From Branchiostoma lanceolatum (taxonomy: Eukaryota > Chordata > Leptocardii > Amphioxiformes > Branchiostomatidae), in assembly GCF_035083965.1 (NCBI RefSeq), contig NC_089727.1, positions 6,639,501 through 6,703,500 on the forward strand: 64,000 nucleotides of DNA, read 5' to 3'. The notes under the pieces are model-generated. The model made no database searches and was not told the origin of the DNA. It was given only the letters and a program-made list of their open reading frames with translations. Position numbers and translations under genes: made by a program. Shown here piece by piece: positions 31,172-45,839 of the stretch. The first letter of the stretch is position 1, and each line of letters opens with the position of its first letter.

Positions 31172-33278
31172 ATTCTGTCCGATCGCTTTTCCGGTGTCTC
31201 AAATTTTCCAATGGCACGCGGAAGTGAGTAGGAATCCTAGACAGTACAACAAGAACGGTTTACCAGGCGTGTGGATGTCAGGAGAGCGTCCTCTGTCCCT
31301 TCGGGGGAGTCATGAATCCTTCTCCAAACAATCGGGACCAGAAATAGCAAGGTTCGGGGTCGCCGAATGGTTCCACGTAGCTAAAGAGGGCGATGGAGTT
31401 GTTTTGCTCGGCTGGACTTCAAGACCTCCCCGCCGCGGTGGGAGGGCACACACCGTTCTTGACCGCCGAAACTCGTGAAATTCCGCTACGAATGCCTGCT
31501 GAAAGCAGCCTCGGATCAGTGTCAACCGTCTCGTTATAGATAGAGGACAGTGACACAGCCGATCGGGACCTCTAGTACAGGAAGTCACTTCGCCGATCGC
31601 GTGTATTTACTTCCAGGATATCGGTTGCGCCCACCCACCCAACTCGCCTTCCTAGCCCCAGTGGGTTCCCGTCCGCTCACTCACACGAATTCCTGGTGAT
31701 CTCACACCTCCCCTTCAGTATCCAAGCAGATCTACAAAATCCCCGAGTGGCACAGACCCTGTGGAAGCTTGCTCCCTCCTCGGGGTGGCGAAACTCCAGC
31801 GGGAATTCCTGAAAACGCGGAAATTCCAACGAGCGGCGGGGCAGCAGGCTGACCTCCCGTGTCCGGACGTCCGACTCAGGACTGGCACCGTGTCGCGTCA
31901 AATTCATGTTCTGACAGATTTCTGCTCTGAGGCGCTAGGAGGGGTTGTTTGAATGCGTGGATATAGGGTTGCGGTTACGGTCACGGGTCAGTTAGGGTTA
32001 CAAATTAAATTGGCCAACATTGATAGGTCAATGGAACCCAAAGAAACTTTTTCGTGAGGTTGAGCTTCTACACATTGTCGATAAAGTGTCCCTATAAACT
32101 TTAGAAAGTGTTGCAACAAAAATTTGGTAGGGACATAATTTGGCATGACGCCCTGAGCTGCGCACGCCCACTGCGCACCACCTTCCCGCCAGGCCGAGCG
32201 AGCAAAATGGCTGCCGCGACTCGCTAGATTCCGTTTTGTCCGTCAACTTGTCTCTTTTGCACTGGTTGTAGAGGCTTTTAGGCTCATCTGTAGAGACAGG
32301 TTGGTTATGCACGTTACTGTCATATTTTTGCGTAAAAATGGGACAGGATAGTCGAGGAAGGAGCTTATATGGCGCTTTGGGGTTGCCGGCATTTGGCTGC
32401 CCAGTCCCGAAACCTATTCATGCATGTTTGTCCATTTACACCTGTTGACCCCACATATTTTGTCATGTGGCTGTGGACTGGTGATCTATTAAATACCTTA
32501 ACGGGTGCCGTCTTTTTGTCTGAAGAAATTTTCAAAGCATGCAAAGGTAATTAACCGACGAAATGCTACAATGAATAAGCTTACTGATAAGGGGTCATAA
32601 GGTTGTTTGTATTTGAAAACAAAAAGCACGTTTGTTTCAAAAGGTCAATGACCGAGAAGTCAGAGAAGTGTGATCTTGTAATCGGTATCTTAGTCAGAAA
32701 AGAATTCGAACAGCAAGGTGACATTTAGTCAATAGTCGTACATCCATAGGTTTATGATACAGCCGAGCACACAGCGTTTCATATGGGACGTGAGAAAAAT
32801 GTGCCAAAATCTCCCTCAACCCTTGTTTTGTTTTTCTTATGATGAGAATTGTATTTCATGTCACTGGAAAGCTGTTTCATTTGTGGTTACTTTGCTTTTT
32901 TTTGCAATGAGCAACATTGCTGAGATTTCCCTGCCATAATCAAACACTGTTGACAGGGAAATTTCGGCACCCTTTATTTCTGCCACTCACTCATATGAGT
33001 AATCTTGGTGCTCAATCCATGATTGATACTGATAGCTTTCCAATGATATCTAATACAATAGAATAAAAAAAAAGTAACAACAGTGATATGATCAAGTAGA
33101 GTGAAGTTTCCAAAGTTTTTGTGTCATATTTAGTTCAGGTACATTTCACCATTCACCAATATTGACTTTTTGTTGTTGACTGAATTACAGTGAATGTGTT
33201 CACGACTGACACATGTAAATTTCTTTCCTTTGCAGTTTTTGCCAAACCCACCCCTGGTAGCAAAGTTAAGAAGTCGCC
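31172..33278. promoter_or_regulatory. head-to-head promoter region of ILK and PGAP1
   Basis: Both coding regions read away from this 2.1 kb stretch. The part 31172-32250 is relatively GC-rich for the window. A YY1-like word AAAATGGCTGCC at 32204-32215 lies on the plus strand and suggests a start for PGAP1 transcripts nearby. A candidate 5' noncoding exon ends at the donor AAAG/gtaatt (32546). An acceptor TTGCAG (33230-33235) precedes the PGAP1 ATG by 43 nt. The sequence 32730-33200 resembles parts of the first introns of both THEM6 genes, so it may be a dispersed repeat. Confidence 0.5.
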
Positions 33279-35996
33279 ATGGCATTTAGTGTGATGCCTG
33301 TACTGATGCTGGGCTTGGTCCTGGTCGGCCTGTTCGACATCCTGTCCAACTACGAGAGCAACAGGTGCGAGATGACCTACATGTACGAGTACCCAGAGTA
33401 CCTGCCCGTCCCTCTGAGTGAGAACGTCACCAAGTCGTTCCCGCGGTACAACCTATACCTGTACGCCGAGGGGAGGTATGCAAGGCAATCAACGAACTTC
33501 AAGCTGACAGGAGTTCCCGTGTTGTTCATCCCGGGCAACGCCGGTAGCCACAAGCAGGTCAGGTCGCTCGGTTCGGTGGCGCTGAAGAAAGCGCAGCACC
33601 TCCGCACTCCGTTCCACTTCAACTACTTTGCCGTGGATCTGAACGAGGAATTGACGGGAATGTTCGGGGCCATACTGTCAGAGCAGACAGAGTTTGTCCA
33701 TCGATGTATCTTGAAGATCCTCTCAATGTACAGGAAGGCAGAAGCCCCGCCTAAAAGTGTGATTCTAGTCGGTCACTCCGTGGGAGGCATCATAGCCAGG
33801 GGTCTTTTCACCCTCCCTGACTTTGACCCCTCTATGGTCAACACCATCATCACTCAAGCTACCCCCCACCAAAGCCCTGTCGTCAATGCAGATCAGTATA
33901 TGGCAGACTTTTACAACACAGTCAATCAGTTTTGGCAGGATGGAATGAGCAGTGGACGGCTTTCACACGTTACCATAGCCTCCACAGGAGGGGCTCACAG
34001 AGACTACCTTGTTCGGGCAGGGCTGACGTCTCTGAAAGGGATCATCCCAGAAACCAATGCTGTCAGTGCTGTGACATCGGCAATACCAAAAGTGTGGCTG
34101 TCTACCGACCATCTGGCAATAGTATGGTGTAAACAGTTGGTGCTAGCCACTAAAAGAGCGCTTTTTGACATCATCGACCCAAAGACAAGGCAGGTCACAA
34201 CGGATGTGAAACACAGGATGCAGGTGTTTCGCCACCATTTTCTCCACCACCCTGGAAGCAAGTCCTTCTCCTTAACATCAGTGCAAAGTGCAATCCCTCC
34301 TGGTGATAAGTGGGTCGAGCTTACAGATGAGATATGGGAACTTACAGAGCCTAGAAACAAGGATGTAACAAACTATATGTTCCCCATTGACAAAGAGTCG
34401 GGTAGAGATACCTTTGTAGCAGCTACCAATATTGTAGAAGATAGCTGGGTGTACTTGTGTCAAGAAGAGGGGGGGCAGAGGTGTAAAGAGGGGCTTGATA
34501 TGTCCTCTCGGTCTCAGCTCAGCCCTCCTCTTTACTCAGGTCACAAAGTTGTTCACCTACATCTGGCCAGCTACAGAAGTTTTTCTCACGTTGTTGTGTC
34601 TGTACCCAAGTCATCAAAGCCAGTGAAGTTGCAAACACAGTTCTACAATGGTACAGAGAAAGCTCAGGAATTGGAAGTCCCCCACGTCATGTCTTTTACC
34701 ATACAAAAGGTGGTTGAGGTTGAAGTTCCTAACAACACAATGTTTTACAACATCAGTGTCGTAGGTTTACAAGAAGTTTATCATGCCTTCACAGCCAACT
34801 TGATAAGTGATTGTGAGGACAATGACATGACAAAGATGCACATGCACATTCCATGGTTCAAGGAGGACGTTTATAGCGTCTCCCAGGCAAGTGGAGATGG
34901 TAAACTTTCGATGCGTTTGCAAAGTGGAAAACTTGTGGATGAGAGCACCAATCCAGAGCTCCGCCTGTACCTGAATCCAAAATGTAACTACAAGGTCCAA
35001 GTTTGGGTCAACTTTGTGGAAGTCTTAGGTCAGTTGATAAGATTCCATGGTATTGTTTTACCTGCATTTGCAGTGACCATCATACTGATGGTACTGTCCT
35101 ACCAGATTAGGACACTTGGTCGTGGACAACCTTGTCCTTCATTTTCTGAAGCGCAGGCAGCCTTCTGTAAACCATACAGAGTTGCCCCTTTGGTCAACCT
35201 CTTCTCCTTGTTGATTAGCTACCAAGGTGCACGTCTGATGTACCTGTCTCTCAACATCCCCCTCCCAGACTCGGAAGTCATGAAGGCTCAGGGAACATGG
35301 TTTAATGCCATGCCGATCCTTTTCTACTTCTTTGCCAGTGCCATCTGCACAATGGTGTCAGCTGCGCTGTTCGGGGGAGTGACTATGATAGGTCACTGCA
35401 TGGTCTGGTTTGGGAAGAAACCCGCCGATCCTGAAGAGATGGCGAGGAAAGCTCCCCATCCAGCGGCACTGTTCGTCATCTCTGGCGCCTTTCTGGCCGT
35501 AGCTAGCCAGTTTTCGGGAGCACTTGCCTTTGCTCTCGTTCTAGCACTTTACTTCGGTAAAACCTGCCGGTTATATGCCAACACCATCACCCTGAAGAAC
35601 TGTTTGAACCTGCAGAACGACAAGAAAAAGCCTGGCCCTCTCGCCGATGCAGAAGACACCTTCCACCTCCAGTACACAATTCTGTACTTGATCTGGTTCA
35701 TGTCGATGCTCTACATGCCTTCTGTCGTTTTCCGGGGAAAGAACTTGAACTTCGAGTACAGGCTACCGGCGGACCCCGCCCTGTACACTGCAGCTGCCAT
35801 GAGTGCGTGTTTTGCTTTCTTGTATCCTCTGCAGGGATGTAACCTCAGGAAGAGGCGCAGTGTTGTTTGGTTATCCTGGTTTGTGTACATCAGTGCGATA
35901 TTGGCTTGTATGTTCTGTATGGTAGCCCTCTACAGGACTCCATACTTTATACTTGGGGCTTTTGTAGTGGTTGCTTTCTGTCACAGAATGGTGTAA
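33279..35996 (+). CDS. PGAP1: GPI inositol-deacylase PGAP1, single exon
   Basis: ER membrane lipase that removes the acyl chain from the inositol of newly attached GPI anchors, which speeds exit of GPI proteins from the ER. 905 aa, close to human (922). An N-terminal membrane segment (about 6-22) is followed by a conserved luminal stretch MYEYPEY and LYAEGRYA. The lipase core contains GIPVLF-like GVPVLFIPGNAGSHKQVRS (78-96), the nucleophile motif GHSVG (Ser167), ITQATPHQSPV and STDHLAIVWCKQ (about 274-285). A luminal beta-rich region follows, then about eight membrane helices from residue 588 to the end. The start ATGGCA has a good context and matches the family N-terminus. The whole frame is free of introns, unlike its neighbours. 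AATAAA follows at 36125. Confidence 0.96.
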   Translation: MAFSVMPVLMLGLVLVGLFDILSNYESNRCEMTYMYEYPEYLPVPLSENVTKSFPRYNLYLYAEGRYARQSTNFKLTGVPVLFIPGNAGSHKQVRSLGSVALKKAQHLRTPFHFNYFAVDLNEELTGMFGAILSEQTEFVHRCILKILSMYRKAEAPPKSVILVGHSVGGIIARGLFTLPDFDPSMVNTIITQATPHQSPVVNADQYMADFYNTVNQFWQDGMSSGRLSHVTIASTGGAHRDYLVRAGLTSLKGIIPETNAVSAVTSAIPKVWLSTDHLAIVWCKQLVLATKRALFDIIDPKTRQVTTDVKHRMQVFRHHFLHHPGSKSFSLTSVQSAIPPGDKWVELTDEIWELTEPRNKDVTNYMFPIDKESGRDTFVAATNIVEDSWVYLCQEEGGQRCKEGLDMSSRSQLSPPLYSGHKVVHLHLASYRSFSHVVVSVPKSSKPVKLQTQFYNGTEKAQELEVPHVMSFTIQKVVEVEVPNNTMFYNISVVGLQEVYHAFTANLISDCEDNDMTKMHMHIPWFKEDVYSVSQASGDGKLSMRLQSGKLVDESTNPELRLYLNPKCNYKVQVWVNFVEVLGQLIRFHGIVLPAFAVTIILMVLSYQIRTLGRGQPCPSFSEAQAAFCKPYRVAPLVNLFSLLISYQGARLMYLSLNIPLPDSEVMKAQGTWFNAMPILFYFFASAICTMVSAALFGGVTMIGHCMVWFGKKPADPEEMARKAPHPAALFVISGAFLAVASQFSGALAFALVLALYFGKTCRLYANTITLKNCLNLQNDKKKPGPLADAEDTFHLQYTILYLIWFMSMLYMPSVVFRGKNLNFEYRLPADPALYTAAAMSACFAFLYPLQGCNLRKRRSVVWLSWFVYISAILACMFCMVALYRTPYFILGAFVVVAFCHRMV

Positions 35997-36600: not shown

Positions 36601-37530
36601 AACGAACAAACAAAAAACCCAATTGCTGCTATTTTGTTATTTGTTGGACAGTTTTCAACTATGTCTCTTAACAATTTTTGGGGACCAAGAAAATGTGTTT
36701 CTTAAAAGAATGTTCACATTATAGAGTGTAATGAAGAAAGAGTTTTAAGACAAATTCTTCTCAAATTTAGACATAATGTTCAGTGCATCTTGAAGGTGCC
36801 CATGAAGTATGGTTTCCACCAAAATCTAAGATGTAATTTTTATGGAAGCATTTCACATAGTCTATTCTAGTGGGATGTCACTAGAAATAACAACAGTTTT
36901 TATAATAGTCTGGATATGTGCTATATGGCAATAGGTCCTATGTTTAGTGCAATATTTCTTCTATAAGCAATCCTGGATATGCACAACTTGGTCACAGTCA
37001 TGTGCAGTATGAATGCACACAGGAACGAGTAACAAACTTGAAAGCAGTGGTGCTACAGATGTTTTCAAAACGCTGTGTTAGTTGGAAGAAATATGTTGCT
37101 GCTTGTGTTGTTGTGATCAATGGTTTTGATACAAAATTTTTTCTATGTACATGTATGGACAGAATAAAAGGAACATGTGCAACTGAAGTTACTTGTATTG
37201 TTACATGTTTTGAGTGTGATTGTCTATCAGTAAAGTTACTTTCACTTTGAAACTGAAACATATGTATGAAACAATTGTCATGACTTTTTGAAATAGTTTT
37301 TTGGACTTTTGAAATCAACCATAACAGGTAACGTTGAGAGGGAAGAGACTTAGCAGATGTCATTGTCCAAAAAAGTTCACAAGATTTGCAAAACTATAGA
37401 AAAATCTAGCCTAGAAAAAAATGATGCTAACTTTTTCACACACCAACACACGTAATAAACTTCTCTTACAAGTCTCCCTATGAACATTTATGTCAGAAAC
37501 ACCCCCATCTTCTTAGTGCGCTCTTCCAAC

Positions 37531-39406
37531 ATGGCGACGGTTTGGTTGCTGGTAGCTCTTCTCGTCCCGTTTGCCTTCTTCGATGTCTGGTACTTCCTCA
37601 ACGGTTTCATCACGTGGATGGTCGCAAAGTTACAGAAAACAATACGGAAGAAAGGCGTATTGGAGGACGTAGTTACCTATGGTAAGCTCTTACTTCTCCG
37701 TTTTTGTCGTTTACCGGCCACGCCCCCCTCCCACTAATTTGTTGCCAAAGGTCATACCGGTATATGTAGTCTGTCAGATCAAGGAGTAAAACCTCCTTGG
37801 TCAGATATCATGCAGATCTGATGGTCAAAACGAAGTCTTCCATGCAGATTTATTGAACTGTTGTTATGTTAAGTGCTGACAGATATTTACATAGCTTTAC
37901 ATAAAGCATTCTTAAAAGTGCCTAAGCCCTTTCACAATCCTGGTTAATTTAATAGTTATTCTTCAAGCAGAGGCTTCGATCGAGAGGGGTAGTTCTGTCC
38001 GGGATTTCTAACGTCCCTCTCCTGGACGTTAGAAATCCCGGACAGAACTACCCCTCTCGATCGAAGCCTCTGCTTGAAGAATAGTTAATAGTAACGTTAT
38101 CAGGATCTATCAGATCATAAACCTAACGCGTTAACACATAATCTTAAACTTTGGAAACTTTTTTTTCGGGTGATCATCTCCAATGTAAACAGTAACGTTA
38201 ACGAAGATTCCAATTGTATATAACACAATTGATAAAGTAACAACTGAGATCTGATCAGTTGGAGTCAAGTTTCCAAACTCTGTCAGGTTAAATCAGGTAA
38301 CGTTACTTGTCAAGTCACGAATATTGACTTTTTGTTGTTATTAGCTCTGGGAATGAGGGTGACACCTCTGACTGGAGGTAATGTTTTGGTTGTGTATGTG
38401 TGTTTGCATCTATACTATAACTCTAGATCCCTTACGACTTTAGTTCTGTGGGTATTTATTGAGGTCCAGAAGACACCTGGTGAATTTTGGCCCCCTTGCA
38501 GCTTTTTCAGGTATGGCAGCATTACAGACTGCCAACATCTTGTTGACTTAGCATTTGTTTGTGCAGATGAAGCATTCACTGATTTGTGTCTTTTTTGTCT
38601 GCACTTTTACAGGCCTGGTTACTACCACTGATCTGGACTTCATGTGTCACAAGAACAACGCTCGCTTCTCGCGCAAGTGTGACTTTGGCCGTTTCATGCT
38701 ATGGGAGTCCACGGGAATCTGGGATAGCGTACGGAAGTTGGGAGGTTCGGCAGTTTTGGGGGCTTCCACCGTCCGCTTCCGCAGATCACTGCAGTTCCTG
38801 GAACCTTTCAGAGTCAGATCTAAGGCAAGAACTGTGAAGAGTTTTTCCAGCAAAAGCACCATAAAAAAACAAGGGCCTGCTCAATATGGTCGAGGGAAAT
38901 TTTGGTACCGTTTTCTCAAAACCAGCTCACATATGGCTGGCTCGACCGCCATAGCCTGTGGGGTACCGTTGTAAAGGGTATTAGATTAGATGTAACATTT
39001 GCTGCTACTGACTTGATGTATGTTTGTTATTGTCTAAAGCACTTCCAGACACTTCCCAACATCCTTATAACTTTAGAACTCCCTACTGCCTAACTCGGTA
39101 ACCAATAGGGACTTGGGTGGCAAACAGCTACTTCAAAGTGCTAAAGGTTAAAAGATGTTGTATTTTCCACAGGTTTTATGCTGGGACAACAAGGCCTTCT
39201 ATGTGGAGCAGCGACTGGAGTCCCTCAGAGACAACTTCATCTGTGCAATAGTGTACTGCAAGCAGACCATGATACGTGTCAGTCCAGCCAAGGTGGTAGA
39301 GGCCACGTGTGGGGAGCCCATGGCCAGCCCTGAGTTTCCATCCGAGATCACCGCGTGGATCGAAATGAACAACATCTCCAGCGAAAACCTCCGCAAAAGT
39401 CTGTGA
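37531..39406 (+). CDS. THEM6: THEM6-like hotdog thioesterase, copy 1
   Basis: Member of the THEM6 group: one N-terminal membrane anchor followed by a 4HBT hotdog fold, thought to act on acyl thioesters at the ER membrane. Exons 37531-37681, 38613-38824 and 39173-39406 (151+212+234 nt), giving 198 aa. The anchor is at about residues 3-20 (LLVALLVPFAFFDVWY). The motif DLDFMCHKNNAR (57-68) corresponds to DLDLLLHMNNAR of vertebrate THEM6, with Asp57, Asp59 and His63. The second block RFRRSLQFLEPFRVRSK and the third LCWDNKAFYVEQRLESLRD match the family. The first ATG of the shared frame is at 37480, but only the ATG at 37531 is followed by sequence conserved with copy 2. Intron 2 begins AAG/GCAAGA, a GC donor. 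Confidence 0.9.
37957..38083. mobile_element. perfect palindrome, 60 bp arms, 8 bp flanking repeat
   Basis: Arms 37957-38016 and 38024-38083 are exact inverted copies separated by 7 nt. Direct repeats TTAATAGT lie at 37949-37956 and 38085-38092. It is in intron 1 of THEM6 copy 1 and absent from copy 2, so it was inserted after, or lost since, the duplication. Confidence 0.75.
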
Positions 39407-41620
39407 CATGCCACGTGGGTTAGACGGAGTATACCATGAGCTCAGGCTGAAACCAGTTGTCCATATTTGCCACCAGTCATTCACATCTTTCTCTTCTATT
39501 TCAATGAATTACATAGACCAAAGAAGCTTTTGCTTATTGCCTGTGTCTAGCATGTATCACTTAATATGTCATACTTGGGCCGCGAAAACGTTAGATACGG
39601 GTGTTCCGGACCGTGTGATAATTTTCCGTATCACACAGGCTTCCATAGAATATTTAGAATGCATTTCAGCGCGCTGGTTGCGCTGCCGTCCAAAATTCAA
39701 ATACCGGATTTGGAAGTTGGAATCAATGTTGCTACAGTTTTTTGTTCGAGGACACAAAACTCCCTCAACTTCTGGCGCATTCCGCATTGAAATGTGTGTT
39801 TTCTCTGGTGATTGTATTCTATATTTAACCTAGAGGGAGTCTGCACTTATCAGTTATGGACTACATTGTATTTGGTATCTCAGGGGCTTTGTTTTGAACT
39901 CAGGGCAAGAGGTGGATGTGACATGAAACTCATTGTCAGGTTGTTGGACGAGGTAAAGCAAAAATAGGTACATTCATTGTTACACTAGTAAATACATGTA
40001 CACTGACAAATGGGTGAAAGAAATTGGTGAACAAATAACTAGCTTCCACTGTAGCGGATTAGATGAAATCGAGGTGAGGCTGGAAAGAAAAGGTTGTAAC
40101 AACTAACAAGTCAACAATAAAAGCTTCCGAGTCTGCAAGCTTTGCAAAATAAGTGACGGTATAGTAATTTTATGTAGAAGCCATATCATGCCATGATGAT
40201 TTATAACTAGTAGATATGATGTGGTAATATTTCAGATGATGGGGAACTTACATTTGGCTTGCTCCATCCTTATTGACTGGCAGCACTTGTGGTGTACTTG
40301 GTCTAATCCACATTTTCATTTCTTTACATTCTATTCATTTCACCAGAAAGTGCATGTCGCTCTTTGGCGTTTTTCAAAGATTCCTGCTCTGGGGGGAGAA
40401 CCCCAACATAAAATAACAGAACATAACATTGTATGATGATTACAAAAGGTCAACTAAAATGAATACATTCATAAATCAATCATAAATAACTAGTATTACA
40501 AATAAATCAAGATAGCTTCGTATAACAGTAAAAAATTAAAGGTTTGTCCAGAAACCACACAACATTGTCATTATGACAGGATTTTGTCATTATATTAAAA
40601 ATTGTATCAGTCTGCACAAAGAACAACAGCTCAGGAGTATGTTTGGGCCAGAAAGGGATATGAAAACATGATACATGTTACAATAAAATGTTGACAGAAG
40701 AAAGCCAATTATTCTCTTTGTCATGTTTCAACTTTAAAATAGACTGCGGCAATACTGCTGTCAAAACAATATAAAACTCTTTTTTCACACGCACACACAG
40801 ATTATTCTTTTCTTATGTACGCAGAGAAATAGTCAAAAATGTGATTCCAATGTACATAGTCAAAGATCCCTGAATGAACATTAATGTGTGAAACACTCTA
40901 ATAACTGAGGTTTATGTGAACTAGATTACTTTATAAGCACAAAATGTACATATACTGGAGTGGGTATGAATTACTGGTGGTGAGCCGTAAGTCTGATGTA
41001 GATATAACGCTCTTGAAGTCACAATTCGAATGTACTAGTACATGTATATGCATAATATGGTTCATGCGATGGTCTGGTTATTACAAGGAAAACAGTGATT
41101 CACAATATATACATGCCCCAGTGTTGCTGGATGCTTAAACACATGATATAACAAAAGATACAAAAAGTAATGCTGCAGTACCAAGGTCACATACTAGGTG
41201 GCCCAAAATCGACCTTCACCTTTGTCTTCCCAACACCTACCCACATACCAAAGGCCATTACAATCCATTCAGATGTTCTAGAGTCATGCTTGCGGAAACA
41301 CAAACCAACACACAGACAGTGTCACACCCAAAACTATATCTCCATTTTTCATGGAGATAACTACCATAAGCTAGGAATACAACTATCCAGAGCTATCGTG
41401 ACAAGCGACGAGACTGCAACTCCGAGATCCAACTTCAAGCGACGCGCGCATATTTTATCTAGAATCCCTTAACCAATCGCGCTGCTGTCACCAGGCTATT
41501 GGTCACCAGCTACCTTCACTCCAAAAGATCATCATCGGATCCTGCCTAATCAACATATGGTAATTATATATTCATGAATTGATTGATTACCTATTCGTTA
41601 CAACAGTGTACTCTTCCAAC
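39407..41620. other. spacer between the two THEM6 genes
   Basis: The first 500 bp are 3'UTR sequence shared with copy 2 (for example GGACTACATTGTA and the word GGGGCTTTGTTTT). It is interrupted at about 39580-39830 by an insertion absent from copy 2. A possible poly(A) signal AATAAA is at about 40116. A minus-strand copy of the dispersed repeat seen at 17220 lies at 41170-41345. The rest, 40130-41160, shows nothing. Confidence 0.6.
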
Positions 41621-44448
41621 ATGGCAACGGTTTGGTTGCTGGTAGCTCTTCTCGCCCCGTTTGCCTTCTTCGATGTCTGGTACTTCCTCAACGGTTTCAT
41701 CACGTGGATGGTCGCAAGGTTACAGAAAACAATACGGAAGAAAGGCGTATTGGAGGACGTAGTTACCTATGGTAAGCTCCCCCCCTTATATAATATGTTG
41801 ATAAATGACATATCTGATGGTCGGAACGATATGATTTTCTGCCTTGTGGCTGTCCTGTTACCAACGAATATTCCTATTGCTTAACATGAAACAAAAAATA
41901 TAACCTTCTGCCTACGGTGAAGGCAATAATGAAGCTGGTTTCTTCAACTTAAAGCGCCTTCAGTAACATGGTTCAGATCTGAACTTAGCAAAAAGTTTGG
42001 GAACTTGATTTCGGTTGATCATACATGTACCTCCATTGGTACGTAATCAATTATATTGTTTTGTGTATCATTGGAAAGCTTCACTTATTGAAACCCCTGT
42101 ACAAATCATGAATGGTACTCCGTATGCTATGATCGTACATCCATGGCATGGGTCGAGCACCATGCACCAGGGCTGCATTCGTGTGCAGATCGTGAGAAGA
42201 AAAAAACGGAATTTCCCGACTATATCGTTTGTGTCCCCTGTTTTCTTATGATGAGCACTGTCTTTTAAACTGATACCCTGTTTAGTTACTTATGTTGTCT
42301 TTATTAGTTTATACAGGGTAGGCGCGCTCAGTGCTAAACACACTGCTTTACAGGCGTGCGCTGTACAGAATAACATACACGGCTGAATAATGTAACATAA
42401 AGAAGGGAATAAGATAAACCAATGAGCAAAAAACATCCCAAAATTATAAAAAAGATAAATACACAACCGAGTGTCAATCAGAATCATATACCGTAGACCA
42501 AAGTCTGTGTGGCAGACCGGGTCAAGAGGTAAGCAGTGATGTTTAGCTTCTTGAGAGATAGGCCAGACGTGGCCACTCTAACTGTTGCAGGCAAATCATT
42601 CATGCAAATGCACCCCTGTACGTAAATGTTCTACGGCCGGACTTTAGTATGACTTTAGGAAGTTGTAAGTTTGAATTATGCCTTGTTGCATAGGTGTAAT
42701 TTGTAATGATTACGCTTTTGTGGGATAACAACAATGATTTCGTGGGTGAGTTGTCGACAAATGCTAAGCCTTCCCTGCTGCCAATATCCAAAATTTCGGT
42801 ACTTTCATTTTCTTGACTCGCTTACACGTGTTACATGAGTAACGCTACGGTCACATTTCCAAACCGGCGCCCAGACGTTGGGCAGTTTGTGGGAACGAAA
42901 GGTATGATATAAAAGACATCAAAACATACAAAACATATAAAAATGTTCCTGAGCATAATCTGCGTATATCTATTATGATATGCTAGAACACTTTTATTCT
43001 TTGTTCCCGCAAGCAGCCCGGCCGGGTCCCGGTTTGGAAATGTGACCATAGCCTGACGCTGGTGCTCGATCCATGAATGCACGATTGTTGCAGGTGACGC
43101 GTACCATTGTAAAGGGTAATGATAGTAACCAGTATCAAGATATTGAACTGAAAGAGTAACAACTAAGAAATGATCAACTGAAGTCAAGTTTTCAAACTTC
43201 TTGAGTTAGGTTTACATCAGGTTACACGTTACTTAGAAACTGCTAGCCATAAATGCACCAATATTGCCATTTTATTATTGACTTAGCATCTGTTTGTGCC
43301 AATGAGATATCAACTCTTTTGTCCGCATTTCTCCAGGCCTGGTAACCACCACTGATCTGGGCTTCGCGTTTTACAAGAACAACGCTCGCTTCTCGCGCAA
43401 GTGTGACTTTGCCCGTTTCCAGCTGTCTGAGTCCACAGGAATCTGGGACAGCCTAGCGAAGTTGGGAGGTGTGGCGGTATTAGGAGCATCAACCATCCGC
43501 TTCCGCAGATCACTACAGTTTCTGGAACCTTTCCGAGTCAGATCTAAGGCAAGAGTTTACAGAAATTACCCATGCAATGGCAGCCTCTCTAGTGCTGAAT
43601 TGGTGCAGGGTTTACAATCACATAATACACATGGGCAACCGATGCATATTTGATCCACACGTGCACTTTTTTGGAACTGTCACAAGGGTCTGGGCGGCTG
43701 CCATTCGGCGCCACTAGGTAACCTCAATGCGACCTTCCCCAACCAAAGTCAGGTACCCGTTTACATCTGGGTGGAGTGAGGAACGTCATGTTAAGTGCCT
43801 TTCCCAAGGGCACGACATCGGGGCATATCAGTGGTTTCGAACCTCTCGGTTGCGCCACACGATGCCACAGAGTTGTGAACATTGTTCTGGTTCCCCTTAG
43901 AACACACTGACTTGATTGTACGTAAGACATCTGCGGACACTCAATGCCCCCCCCCCCCAAGAAAAGTTAAGAAGTTTACAACCGTAACTGTAATTGTAAA
44001 GAGAAGCAGCCAAAGTTGCAAATATATGCCATATATTGCAGAAGAACATCGGAAAACGGATAGTTATGTCGTAGACTGCCAAAGTCGATTTCAAAGAAGA
44101 CATGAAAGCATAATCATATACAAATGGGGAATCATTTCGAAAGGACATATGGTCGAAGGAAATTTTGGGCTTTTTTTTCCCAAGCCTCAAACCAACCAAT
44201 TGTCTTTTCCACAGGTTTTATGTTGGGACGACAAGGCTTTCTATGTGGAGCAGCGACTGGAGTCCCTAAGAGACAACTTCATCTGTGCAATAGTCTACTG
44301 TAAAGAGACCGTGCTTCGCACCAGTCCAGCCAAGGTGGTGGAGACCATGTGTGGGGAGCCCATGGCCAGCCCTGAGTTTCCATCCGAGATCACCACGTGG
44401 ATCGAAATGAACAACATCTCCAGCGAAAACCTCCGCAAAAGTCTGTGA
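41621..44448 (+). CDS. THEM6: THEM6-like hotdog protein, copy 2, altered active-site motif
   Basis: Tandem duplicate of the gene at 37531. Exons 41621-41771, 43337-43548 and 44215-44448 have exactly the same lengths and phases, giving 198 aa. The membrane anchor and the C-terminal blocks are almost unchanged. In exon 2 the motif reads DLGFAFYKNNAR, so Asp59 has become Gly and His63 has become Tyr. By my count the proteins differ at 2 of 50 residues in exon 1, 11 of 70 in exon 2 and 8 of 77 in exon 3. The frame is fully open, so it is not a simple pseudogene. The GC donor of intron 2 is kept. Either it has changed substrate or chemistry, or it has lost catalysis while keeping its fold. Confidence 0.88.
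42845..43051. mobile_element. MITE with CTAYGGTCACATTTCC ends
   Basis: Left end CTACGGTCACATTTCCAAAC and right end GTTTGGAAATGTGACCATAG are inverted copies with one mismatch. Length 207 bp, no coding capacity, inside intron 1 of THEM6 copy 2. The flanking duplication is unclear. Confidence 0.65.
43715..43870 (-). mobile_element. SINE fragment, family 2
   Basis: Minus-strand copy with ACCAAAGTCAGGTACCCGTT, GTGCCTTTCCCAAGGGC and the B-box-like GTTTCGAACC, in intron 2 of THEM6 copy 2. Confidence 0.65.
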
Positions 44449-45839
44449 CATGCCACGTGGGTTAGACGGAGTATACTGTAATTCACTTTATCTTCACGGT
44501 AGCTGTGTAAGGAAAATGCTTTTTCACTGAAGTTTAACTTCATTAATTGTGGCAGCAAGTGATTTACAGAACAGATGTGTGAAGGAATCATAGATAATTA
44601 CAACAGGTTTTTCACGGTGATGATAAGTTCATGGTACAGAGGTGACCGTGAAAACAGTGAACATAAAGTTACAGTAAAAGAAACAAGAATTACAGTATCA
44701 TGAAGTTGAACCCATGAGCTCGGGGAAACTAGCCGGCAAGCAATAAAAAAATGTAATAAGAAAATGGTAACTTAGAATAAAACAGTCGTAAGGAGTCTGC
44801 AACGGAGGCTAGGGTGAAACCAGTTGTTGTCAATATTTTCCATTAGTCCTTCACATCGTCCTCTTTTAATCTACTTGAATAAATTCTAGACAAAAGAGTT
44901 TTCTGCTTATTAGCTGTGTCTTTGCCTAGCATGCATCACTTAGTAAGCTAGTTCGAGTCTGCACCTATTGACTTGCTACGTAATTATGGACTACATTGTA
45001 CATGTATTTGGTATCTTAGGGGCTTTATTTTAAACTCAGATAAGGCCACGCCAATTTTTTGTTGCTTCTCGGAATAGCCTGCCCTGATTTTCCCATTTAA
45101 AAAAAAAAAAAATTTGGTCGCTATTCCCATTCACAAATTTTAACTCCAAATTTTACTATATGTTCAGTTGTAGAACTCAATAGCCACCAAAATAGATTAT
45201 AAAGGCCTGCACATACCTAAAAAGTGTGGTCACATTGATCATAAGTTATAATTTTTCATTTATCAAAACTACTTCTCAATATCAATCCATACATTACATG
45301 GCAAATGGTAATTTTGTTACTGAAATTATAGTACTAGATCAAAGAAAGGGGTGCATTGCATTAAAACGAGCCAGACAAAGCTGAAACTTGAATAATCCTC
45401 TTATTCTTTATGTAATGTAAACCCTTATTTTCACCCCAGACTATTTGCAAAATATTTTATTTTTATTTCTTTTCGCCCTGTCACTCCATTTAAAAAAAAA
45501 AAAAACGAGAACCAACGAATAAAATTGGTGTGGTCTAACAATCAGTTGTCAAAAATGAGCGATGTGAAATTTCATCACGATTTCCCACCAATTATTTAGT
45601 AATAATTACTGTGGTCATATGCTGGCAAATCCAGGTCGTTTTGGGCAGTGTAACTGATGTAACTTACATTAAGTTACAGCAGCCAAACCATGTTATAATG
45701 ACATTATTTCTAGCATCACAAAAGAAACAGAAGCATTTTACAAAAACAAATCTTACAACATACTACTTCCTAATCAGAGATTTTATTTTGTAAATAACAT
45801 TTCCAAGGTACAGCTGTTATTTTCCACAATCATTTTTGC
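44449..45839. other. convergent spacer between THEM6 copy 2 and ALKBH8
   Basis: 3'UTR sequence shared with THEM6 copy 1 runs to about 44476 and resumes at about 44811. Between them is an insertion of about 335 bp that is absent from copy 1. Poly(A) candidates AATAAA are near 44742 and 44878. A Harbinger-like element follows at 45043-45537. ALKBH8 ends at 45840 on the other strand, so the two genes are tail to tail. Confidence 0.6.
45043..45537. mobile_element. Harbinger-like MITE
   Basis: Left end AAGGCCACGCCAATTTTTTG with TTGCTTCTCGG, and right end CGAGAACCAACGAAT with AATTGGTGTGG. A-rich runs at about 45100 and 45490. Same end family as 61491-62093. Confidence 0.55.

Follow-up and report, generated by a model that had tools for sequence, protein, structure and literature searches.

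An intact tandem copy of a THEM6-type hotdog gene in Branchiostoma lanceolatum lacks the near-invariant active-site aspartate

THEM6 is described as a protein of the endoplasmic reticulum (ER) membrane with a transmembrane segment at its N-terminus; it reportedly regulates ether lipids and is required for the synthesis of sterols in prostate cancer cells, and the cited sections of that paper present its thioesterase activity as a prediction only (PMC8899912). The relevant sections of two papers give THEM6 no characterised function (PMC8899912, PMC11594901), and the second of them reports two THEM6 genes in the aphid Myzus persicae (PMC11594901). A hotdog subfamily named after the mesenchymal stem cell protein DSCD75 (MSCP) has been listed with 10 metazoan members and 1 proteobacterial member (Dillon and Bateman 2004; PMC516016). 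In the passages that we cite, an Asp is named as catalytic in the 4HBT-I, YbgC, and YbaW types of hotdog enzymes (PMC2698920, PMC12794305, PMC6678348, PMC516016), and the active sites of 4HBT-I-type enzymes lie at the dimer interface (PMC2698920). Replacement of the equivalent Asp abolished activity in a YbgC-type enzyme, in ShMKS2, and in ALT1 (PMC12794305, PMC6678348); in the gentisyl-CoA thioesterase of Bacillus halodurans, loss of Asp16 cut the rate only 230-fold (PMC516016). Our literature searches found no report of a THEM6 paralog without the catalytic Asp and nothing on THEM6 in Branchiostoma or on hotdog pseudoenzymes; a search for pseudoenzyme thioesterase paralogs gave nothing related, and none of the titles on amphioxus thioesterases was on topic.

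The window analyzed here, a stretch of 64,000 nucleotides from B. lanceolatum, harbors two three-exon genes located head to tail on the + strand with 2.2 kb between them (copy 1, positions 37531-39406; copy 2, positions 41621-44448). We call both copies THEM6, a name taken from the original prediction. We also take DSCD75 to be THEM6, and the active-site segment of copy 1 is presumably like that of vertebrate THEM6. The exons and the segment of interest are:

37531..37681, + strand: copy 1 exon 1
38613..38824, + strand: copy 1 exon 2, carrying the intact segment DLDFMCHKNNAR
39173..39406, + strand: copy 1 exon 3 and stop codon
41621..41771, + strand: copy 2 exon 1, start of the protein with its N-terminal hydrophobic anchor (from hydropathy), codons 1-50 plus 1 nt
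43337..43548, + strand: copy 2 exon 2, encoding the first half of the hotdog domain with the altered active-site segment
43354..43389, + strand: copy 2 active-site segment, codons 57-68, DLGFAFYKNNAR (from the alignment; coordinates counted from the start of exon 2)
44215..44448, + strand: copy 2 exon 3, encoding the second half of the hotdog domain and the C-terminus, plus the stop codon

The exons measure 151, 212, and 234 nt in both copies, each copy has 597 nt of coding sequence (198 codons and the stop), and the two proteins are 89% identical. Copy 2 contains neither a premature stop nor an indel, and the claim that its 198-codon frame and exon structure are intact thus stands. Its splice sites had been called intact as well, which holds for their positions and needs one amendment: intron 1 is GT-AG in both copies, but the intron 2 donor is GC rather than GT in both (GC-AG, TAAG|GCAAGA, with intron starts at 38825 and 43549). 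An alternative donor for intron 2, a GT lying 12 nt upstream that would keep the frame, was rejected in favor of the GC because it would remove the residues VRSK, with which relatives align. The introns can be aligned between the copies in pieces only and differ in length (931 versus 1565 nt for intron 1 and 348 versus 666 nt for intron 2, copy 1 versus copy 2). A tblastn search with copy 1 revealed no third copy within the window, the other matches being short with E values of at least 0.40.

Several features of the neighborhood were recorded alongside. An uninterrupted frame of 908 codons (33270-35996, + strand) matches the alpha/beta, beta-sandwich, and transmembrane domains of PGAP1, the GPI inositol-deacylase, and carries a nucleophile-type VGHSVGG motif; this apparently intronless gene lies 1.5 kb upstream of THEM6 copy 1. 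A hairpin in the first intron of copy 1 (37950-38090) has 67-nt arms that are 96% complementary and 7 nt apart. In intron 1 of copy 2 we found a MITE-like element (42839-43057) with 39-nt inverted ends, 82% complementary and 141 nt apart, enclosed by the inverted arm pairs 41989-42022/43170-43203 and 42147-42162/43060-43075. Reading back from exon 3 of copy 2 into intron 2, the frame stays open for a further 112 codons (43879-44448, + strand), probably by chance.

Both proteins belong to the 4HBT_2 family (Pfam entry PF13279), with 86.4 bits for copy 1 and 69.6 bits, 17 less, for copy 2 (cut-off, 25.5). The match of copy 2 covers the whole domain (residues 54-183 on profile positions 2-121 of 122) and is its sole Pfam match at E values up to 1. 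An N-terminal hydrophobic anchor is seen in both copies: the 19-residue Kyte-Doolittle maximum lies at residue 1 and amounts to 2.16 in copy 1 and 2.03 in copy 2. Neither copy matched NCBIfam, a phmmer search of solved structures with copy 1 returned just one weak unrelated match, and no animal relative was found among the viral contigs, prokaryote contigs, plasmids, and solved structures searched. Viral contigs, queried with exon 1 and with a bacterial homologue, yielded no match in either case. The one match among genome contigs, a 26-codon stretch in Salipaludibacillus aurantiacus picked up by a single 8-residue pattern, was judged to be chance.

The central observation concerns the active-site segment. 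The original prediction held that copy 2 had lost the Asp and the His of this segment, and indeed it differs from copy 1 by D59G and H63Y, together with M61A and C62F. These four replacements result from five base changes, all non-synonymous, in four codons within a span of five. The accompanying claim that the changes cluster at the motif was borne out in part: four fall within five codons, but random placement yields such clustering with p = 0.069 in exon 2 and p = 0.060 in the whole protein, values that are suggestive, short of significance, and moreover optimistic because the boundaries were chosen after the data had been seen. Also, the 11 residue changes of exon 2 comprise, besides the four in the motif, seven elsewhere, at positions 76, 79, 81, 90, 91, 96, and 104.

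We then examined which of the lost residues is conserved in relatives. The first outgroup set consisted of 7 plasmid records (5, then 7 records, 7 of them distinct) and 31 loci, and all 38 have Asp at the position of D59. The full set comprises 107 bacterial members, namely, the 7 plasmid members and 100 places from 199 genomes of a single phylum among the matches listed; these 100 are the 31 loci plus 69 whose match starts no later than profile position 5 and extends to position 87 or beyond. The phylum, that of Salipaludibacillus aurantiacus, is presumably Bacillota. In this set, the D59 column contains Asp in 102 members, Asn in 1 (39.9 bits), and a gap in 4, although the members were found with profiles that contain the Asp, a bias in its favor. 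At the H63 column, His is present in 23 of the 103 rows with a letter and Tyr in 2, again among the matches listed. With a near-invariant Asp and a His in 23 of 103 rows, only the loss of the Asp carries weight; judged from these alignments, D59 is the decisive loss in copy 2 and H63 matters less. As a separate observation, two of the seven plasmid homologues, from Photobacterium (L003, 296-829) and Pseudorhodobacter (L037, 284-871), have Glu at the place of copy 1 His63 and keep the Asp.

The bacterial relatives are distant (17-26% identity in six aligned rows) and therefore polarize the change at D59 but not most of the other differences between the copies. Site 127 is a case in point: the Asp of copy 2 is shared by 2 of 6 relatives (L003 and L004) and the Asn of copy 1 by none of the 6, although in the full set few members have Asp (4) or Asn (3) among the matches listed. 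Copy 1 may thus be the changed copy at this site, so the changes need not all belong to copy 2.

A profile of alignment A1 matched ten distinct sequences of solved structures at E values up to 0.01, the best being 1njk (YbaW). The alignments shown for four of these ten (1njk, 3hm0, 5byu, and 2fuj, the best matches, of the YbaW and YbgC/4HBT-I types) all contain an Asp at the place of D59, the second Asp of a DxD. Thioesterase papers assign 1NJK and 2FUJ to the YbaW subfamily (PMC2698920, PMC12794305, PMC6678348, PMC516016), and Asp20 of 2FUJ is named as its catalytic residue (PMC2698920). Provided that the 2fuj chain starts with a tag of three residues, its aligned Asp would be this Asp20. The YbaW and YbgC/4HBT-I enzymes thus keep a catalytic Asp that copy 1 retains as D59 and that is G59 in copy 2. 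Since loss of Asp16 in the B. halodurans enzyme was so partial in its effect, D59G need not abolish activity.

The divergence between the two copies is unevenly distributed. Synonymous differences number 1 in 33.5 sites over codons 1-50, 23.5 in 81.7 sites over codons 51-166 (a synonymous divergence of 0.36), and 0 in 19.0 sites over codons 167-198. The contrast is significant for exon 1 versus the middle (p = 0.0011) and for both ends versus the middle (p = 2e-5), values which are likewise optimistic, the boundaries having been chosen by eye with the data in view. The longest run free of synonymous differences, a statistic that requires no boundaries, gives p = 0.014; the longest run free of any difference over all coding sites is not unusual (p = 0.14). 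Two probable conversion tracts were delimited:

41605..41779, + strand: exon 1 of copy 2 with 16 nt upstream and 8 nt of the intron, 97% identical to 37515-37689
44350..44476, + strand: from codon 167 to 28 nt downstream of the stop, with a single difference to copy 1 (coordinates counted from the start of exon 3)

Beyond these tracts similarity drops, to 71-84% identity in those pieces of intron 1 and the 3' region that align; one 22-nt piece of intron 2 is 95% identical between the copies. The simplest reading that these patterns suggest is gene conversion of both gene ends. The flanks of the motif had been described as conserved, and they are, yet their synonymous sites are conserved too, and DNA-level homogenization therefore adds to whatever selection on the protein contributes. 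If both ends were converted, the active-site exon has so far escaped homogenization, which could be by chance or by selection.

Between the copies the protein is under constraint. The overall dN/dS is 0.29 (bootstrap 95% interval, 0.14-0.54) and that of codons 51-166 is 0.26 (0.12-0.51), with 2.8% of replicates reaching 0.5, about the ratio at which one would begin to suspect that one copy evolves freely; these ratios are pairwise and measure constraint between the copies, which is not assignable to either one. For exon 2 alone the interval is wide (0.11-0.74), so relaxed constraint in this exon is possible, and when codons 59-63 are removed the estimate is 0.21 (0.06-0.57). In neutral simulations of the copy 2 branch, in which indels were not counted, the frame stayed free of stops in 2.5% of runs at K = 0.18 (roughly half the dS of 0.36 found for codons 51-166), in 12% at K = 0.10, and in 0.3% at K = 0.30. 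Because 12% of runs survive at the lowest of these distances, the open frame alone is moderate evidence.

Taken as a whole, these data lead us to favor, with moderate confidence, the reading that copy 2 is a functional THEM6-type tandem paralog that has lost the D59 carboxylate and is probably an inactive or strongly impaired thioesterase with a binding or dimer role. Of the three outcomes suggested initially, a new substrate, a scaffold role after loss of catalysis, or a regulatory pseudoenzyme, the sequence does not single one out. The pseudoenzyme idea gains from the finding that the key hotdog Asp is gone from an intact and constrained paralog, and loses from the His not being family-defining and from the borderline clustering.

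Three other explanations have to be weighed against this one. Copy 2 might be losing its function, through early decay or relaxed constraint, with the motif changes being neutral hits that preceded any stop or frameshift. The four changes do hit the segment that matters most for function, the dN/dS interval of exon 2 extends to 0.74, gene conversion can keep the ends of a decaying copy looking intact, and on a short branch (K = 0.10) the 12% of simulations without a stop would accommodate an open frame. But the 597 nt are free of stops and indels although the introns have come to differ in length and align only piecewise, 97% of bootstraps put the dN/dS of codons 51-166 under 0.5, and exon 2 outside codons 59-63 has a low point estimate; on balance we regard decay as unlikely. 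We give far less credence to an artefact, whether two haplotypes, a misassembled duplicate, or a sequencing error at the motif: a mid-gene synonymous divergence of 0.36, introns that for the most part cannot be aligned, and unlike inverted-repeat inserts in the two first introns are more than we would expect of one locus, and five clustered base changes leave the frame intact. A haplotype duplication was accordingly set aside on the divergence of the introns.

Copy 2 might also still be an enzyme, with D74 on the hotdog helix replacing the D59 carboxylate and with A61, F62, and Y63 shifting the substrate range. A parallel exists in the Arthrobacter 4HBT-II enzyme, in which Glu73 is catalytic and a Gln occupies the Asp17 position (PMC516016). 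D74 is unchanged in both copies, and its spacing of 15 residues from D59 equals that of the pairs Gln58-Glu73 and Asp17-Asp32 in published enzymes (numbers from PMC516016; the comparison is ours), so that copy 2 matches the acidic helix residue found in 4HBT-II enzymes 15 residues after the Asp17 position. The D74 column is acidic in 96 of the 103 relatives with a letter (Glu in 87 and Asp in 9, among the matches listed). However, this makes D74 a general family residue that occurs together with D59, and its retention therefore says little. Furthermore, 4HBT-II enzymes, as portrayed in the cited passage, have a different tetramer and an HGG motif that is missing from copy 2: where they have HGGAS-x-ALAE, copy 2 reads YKNNARFSRKCDF (PMC516016). 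A relocated active site, proposed here by analogy, thus appears improbable.

Under the favored reading, a paralog without efficient catalysis, copy 2 has kept its N-terminal membrane anchor, its hotdog domain, and the greater part of its other sequence, and would most likely reside at the ER membrane. With anchor and domain kept and the carboxylate gone, we infer that it would bind acyl-CoA or a lipid without efficient cleavage, acting either on its own or paired with copy 1 in a dimer of which it would be the non-catalytic half and whose active sites would lie at the interface. That copy 1 is itself active is an assumption, because the thioesterase activity of THEM6 is only predicted. A more elaborate version, which we consider a long shot, is that the tandem pair encodes an asymmetric ER-anchored THEM6 heterodimer. 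Copy 1 would then provide the catalytic Asp, copy 2 would contribute a dead site and a more hydrophobic pocket mouth, and a homodimeric hotdog enzyme would have become a regulated enzyme with one site; conversion would homogenize the anchor and the C-terminus, and selection would keep the active-site exon apart.

The non-catalytic paralog that we favor resembles described systems in different respects. With THEM6 itself it shares a single 4HBT_2 hotdog domain behind an N-terminal hydrophobic anchor, and it differs in missing the near-invariant Asp. Since one member of the pair lacks the putative nucleophile, the two copies could serve as a ready-made test of whether THEM6 is a thioesterase or an ER binding protein. 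Precedents for a non-catalytic hotdog subunit are HadA/HadB and FapR. In the mycobacterial HadAB dehydratase, the catalytic pair is on HadB only and the acyl chain is bound by HadA (PMC4491049); HadA is thus a hotdog subunit that lacks catalytic residues and holds the acyl chain for a partner that performs the catalysis, much as copy 2 might do for copy 1. HadAB is, however, a dehydratase of a different hotdog subfamily, and HadA and HadB share little sequence, compared to 89% identity for the THEM6 copies. FapR is likewise a hotdog protein without catalysis and, in the passage cited, is thought to retain ligand specificity for malonyl-CoA (PMC516016). It is, however, a bacterial repressor that binds DNA and has a helix-turn-helix, whereas copy 2 matches 4HBT_2 alone, with no DNA-binding helix-turn-helix in Pfam at E values up to 1. 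If our reading is correct, copy 2 adds an animal case to the hotdog duplicates and partners that give up one active site.
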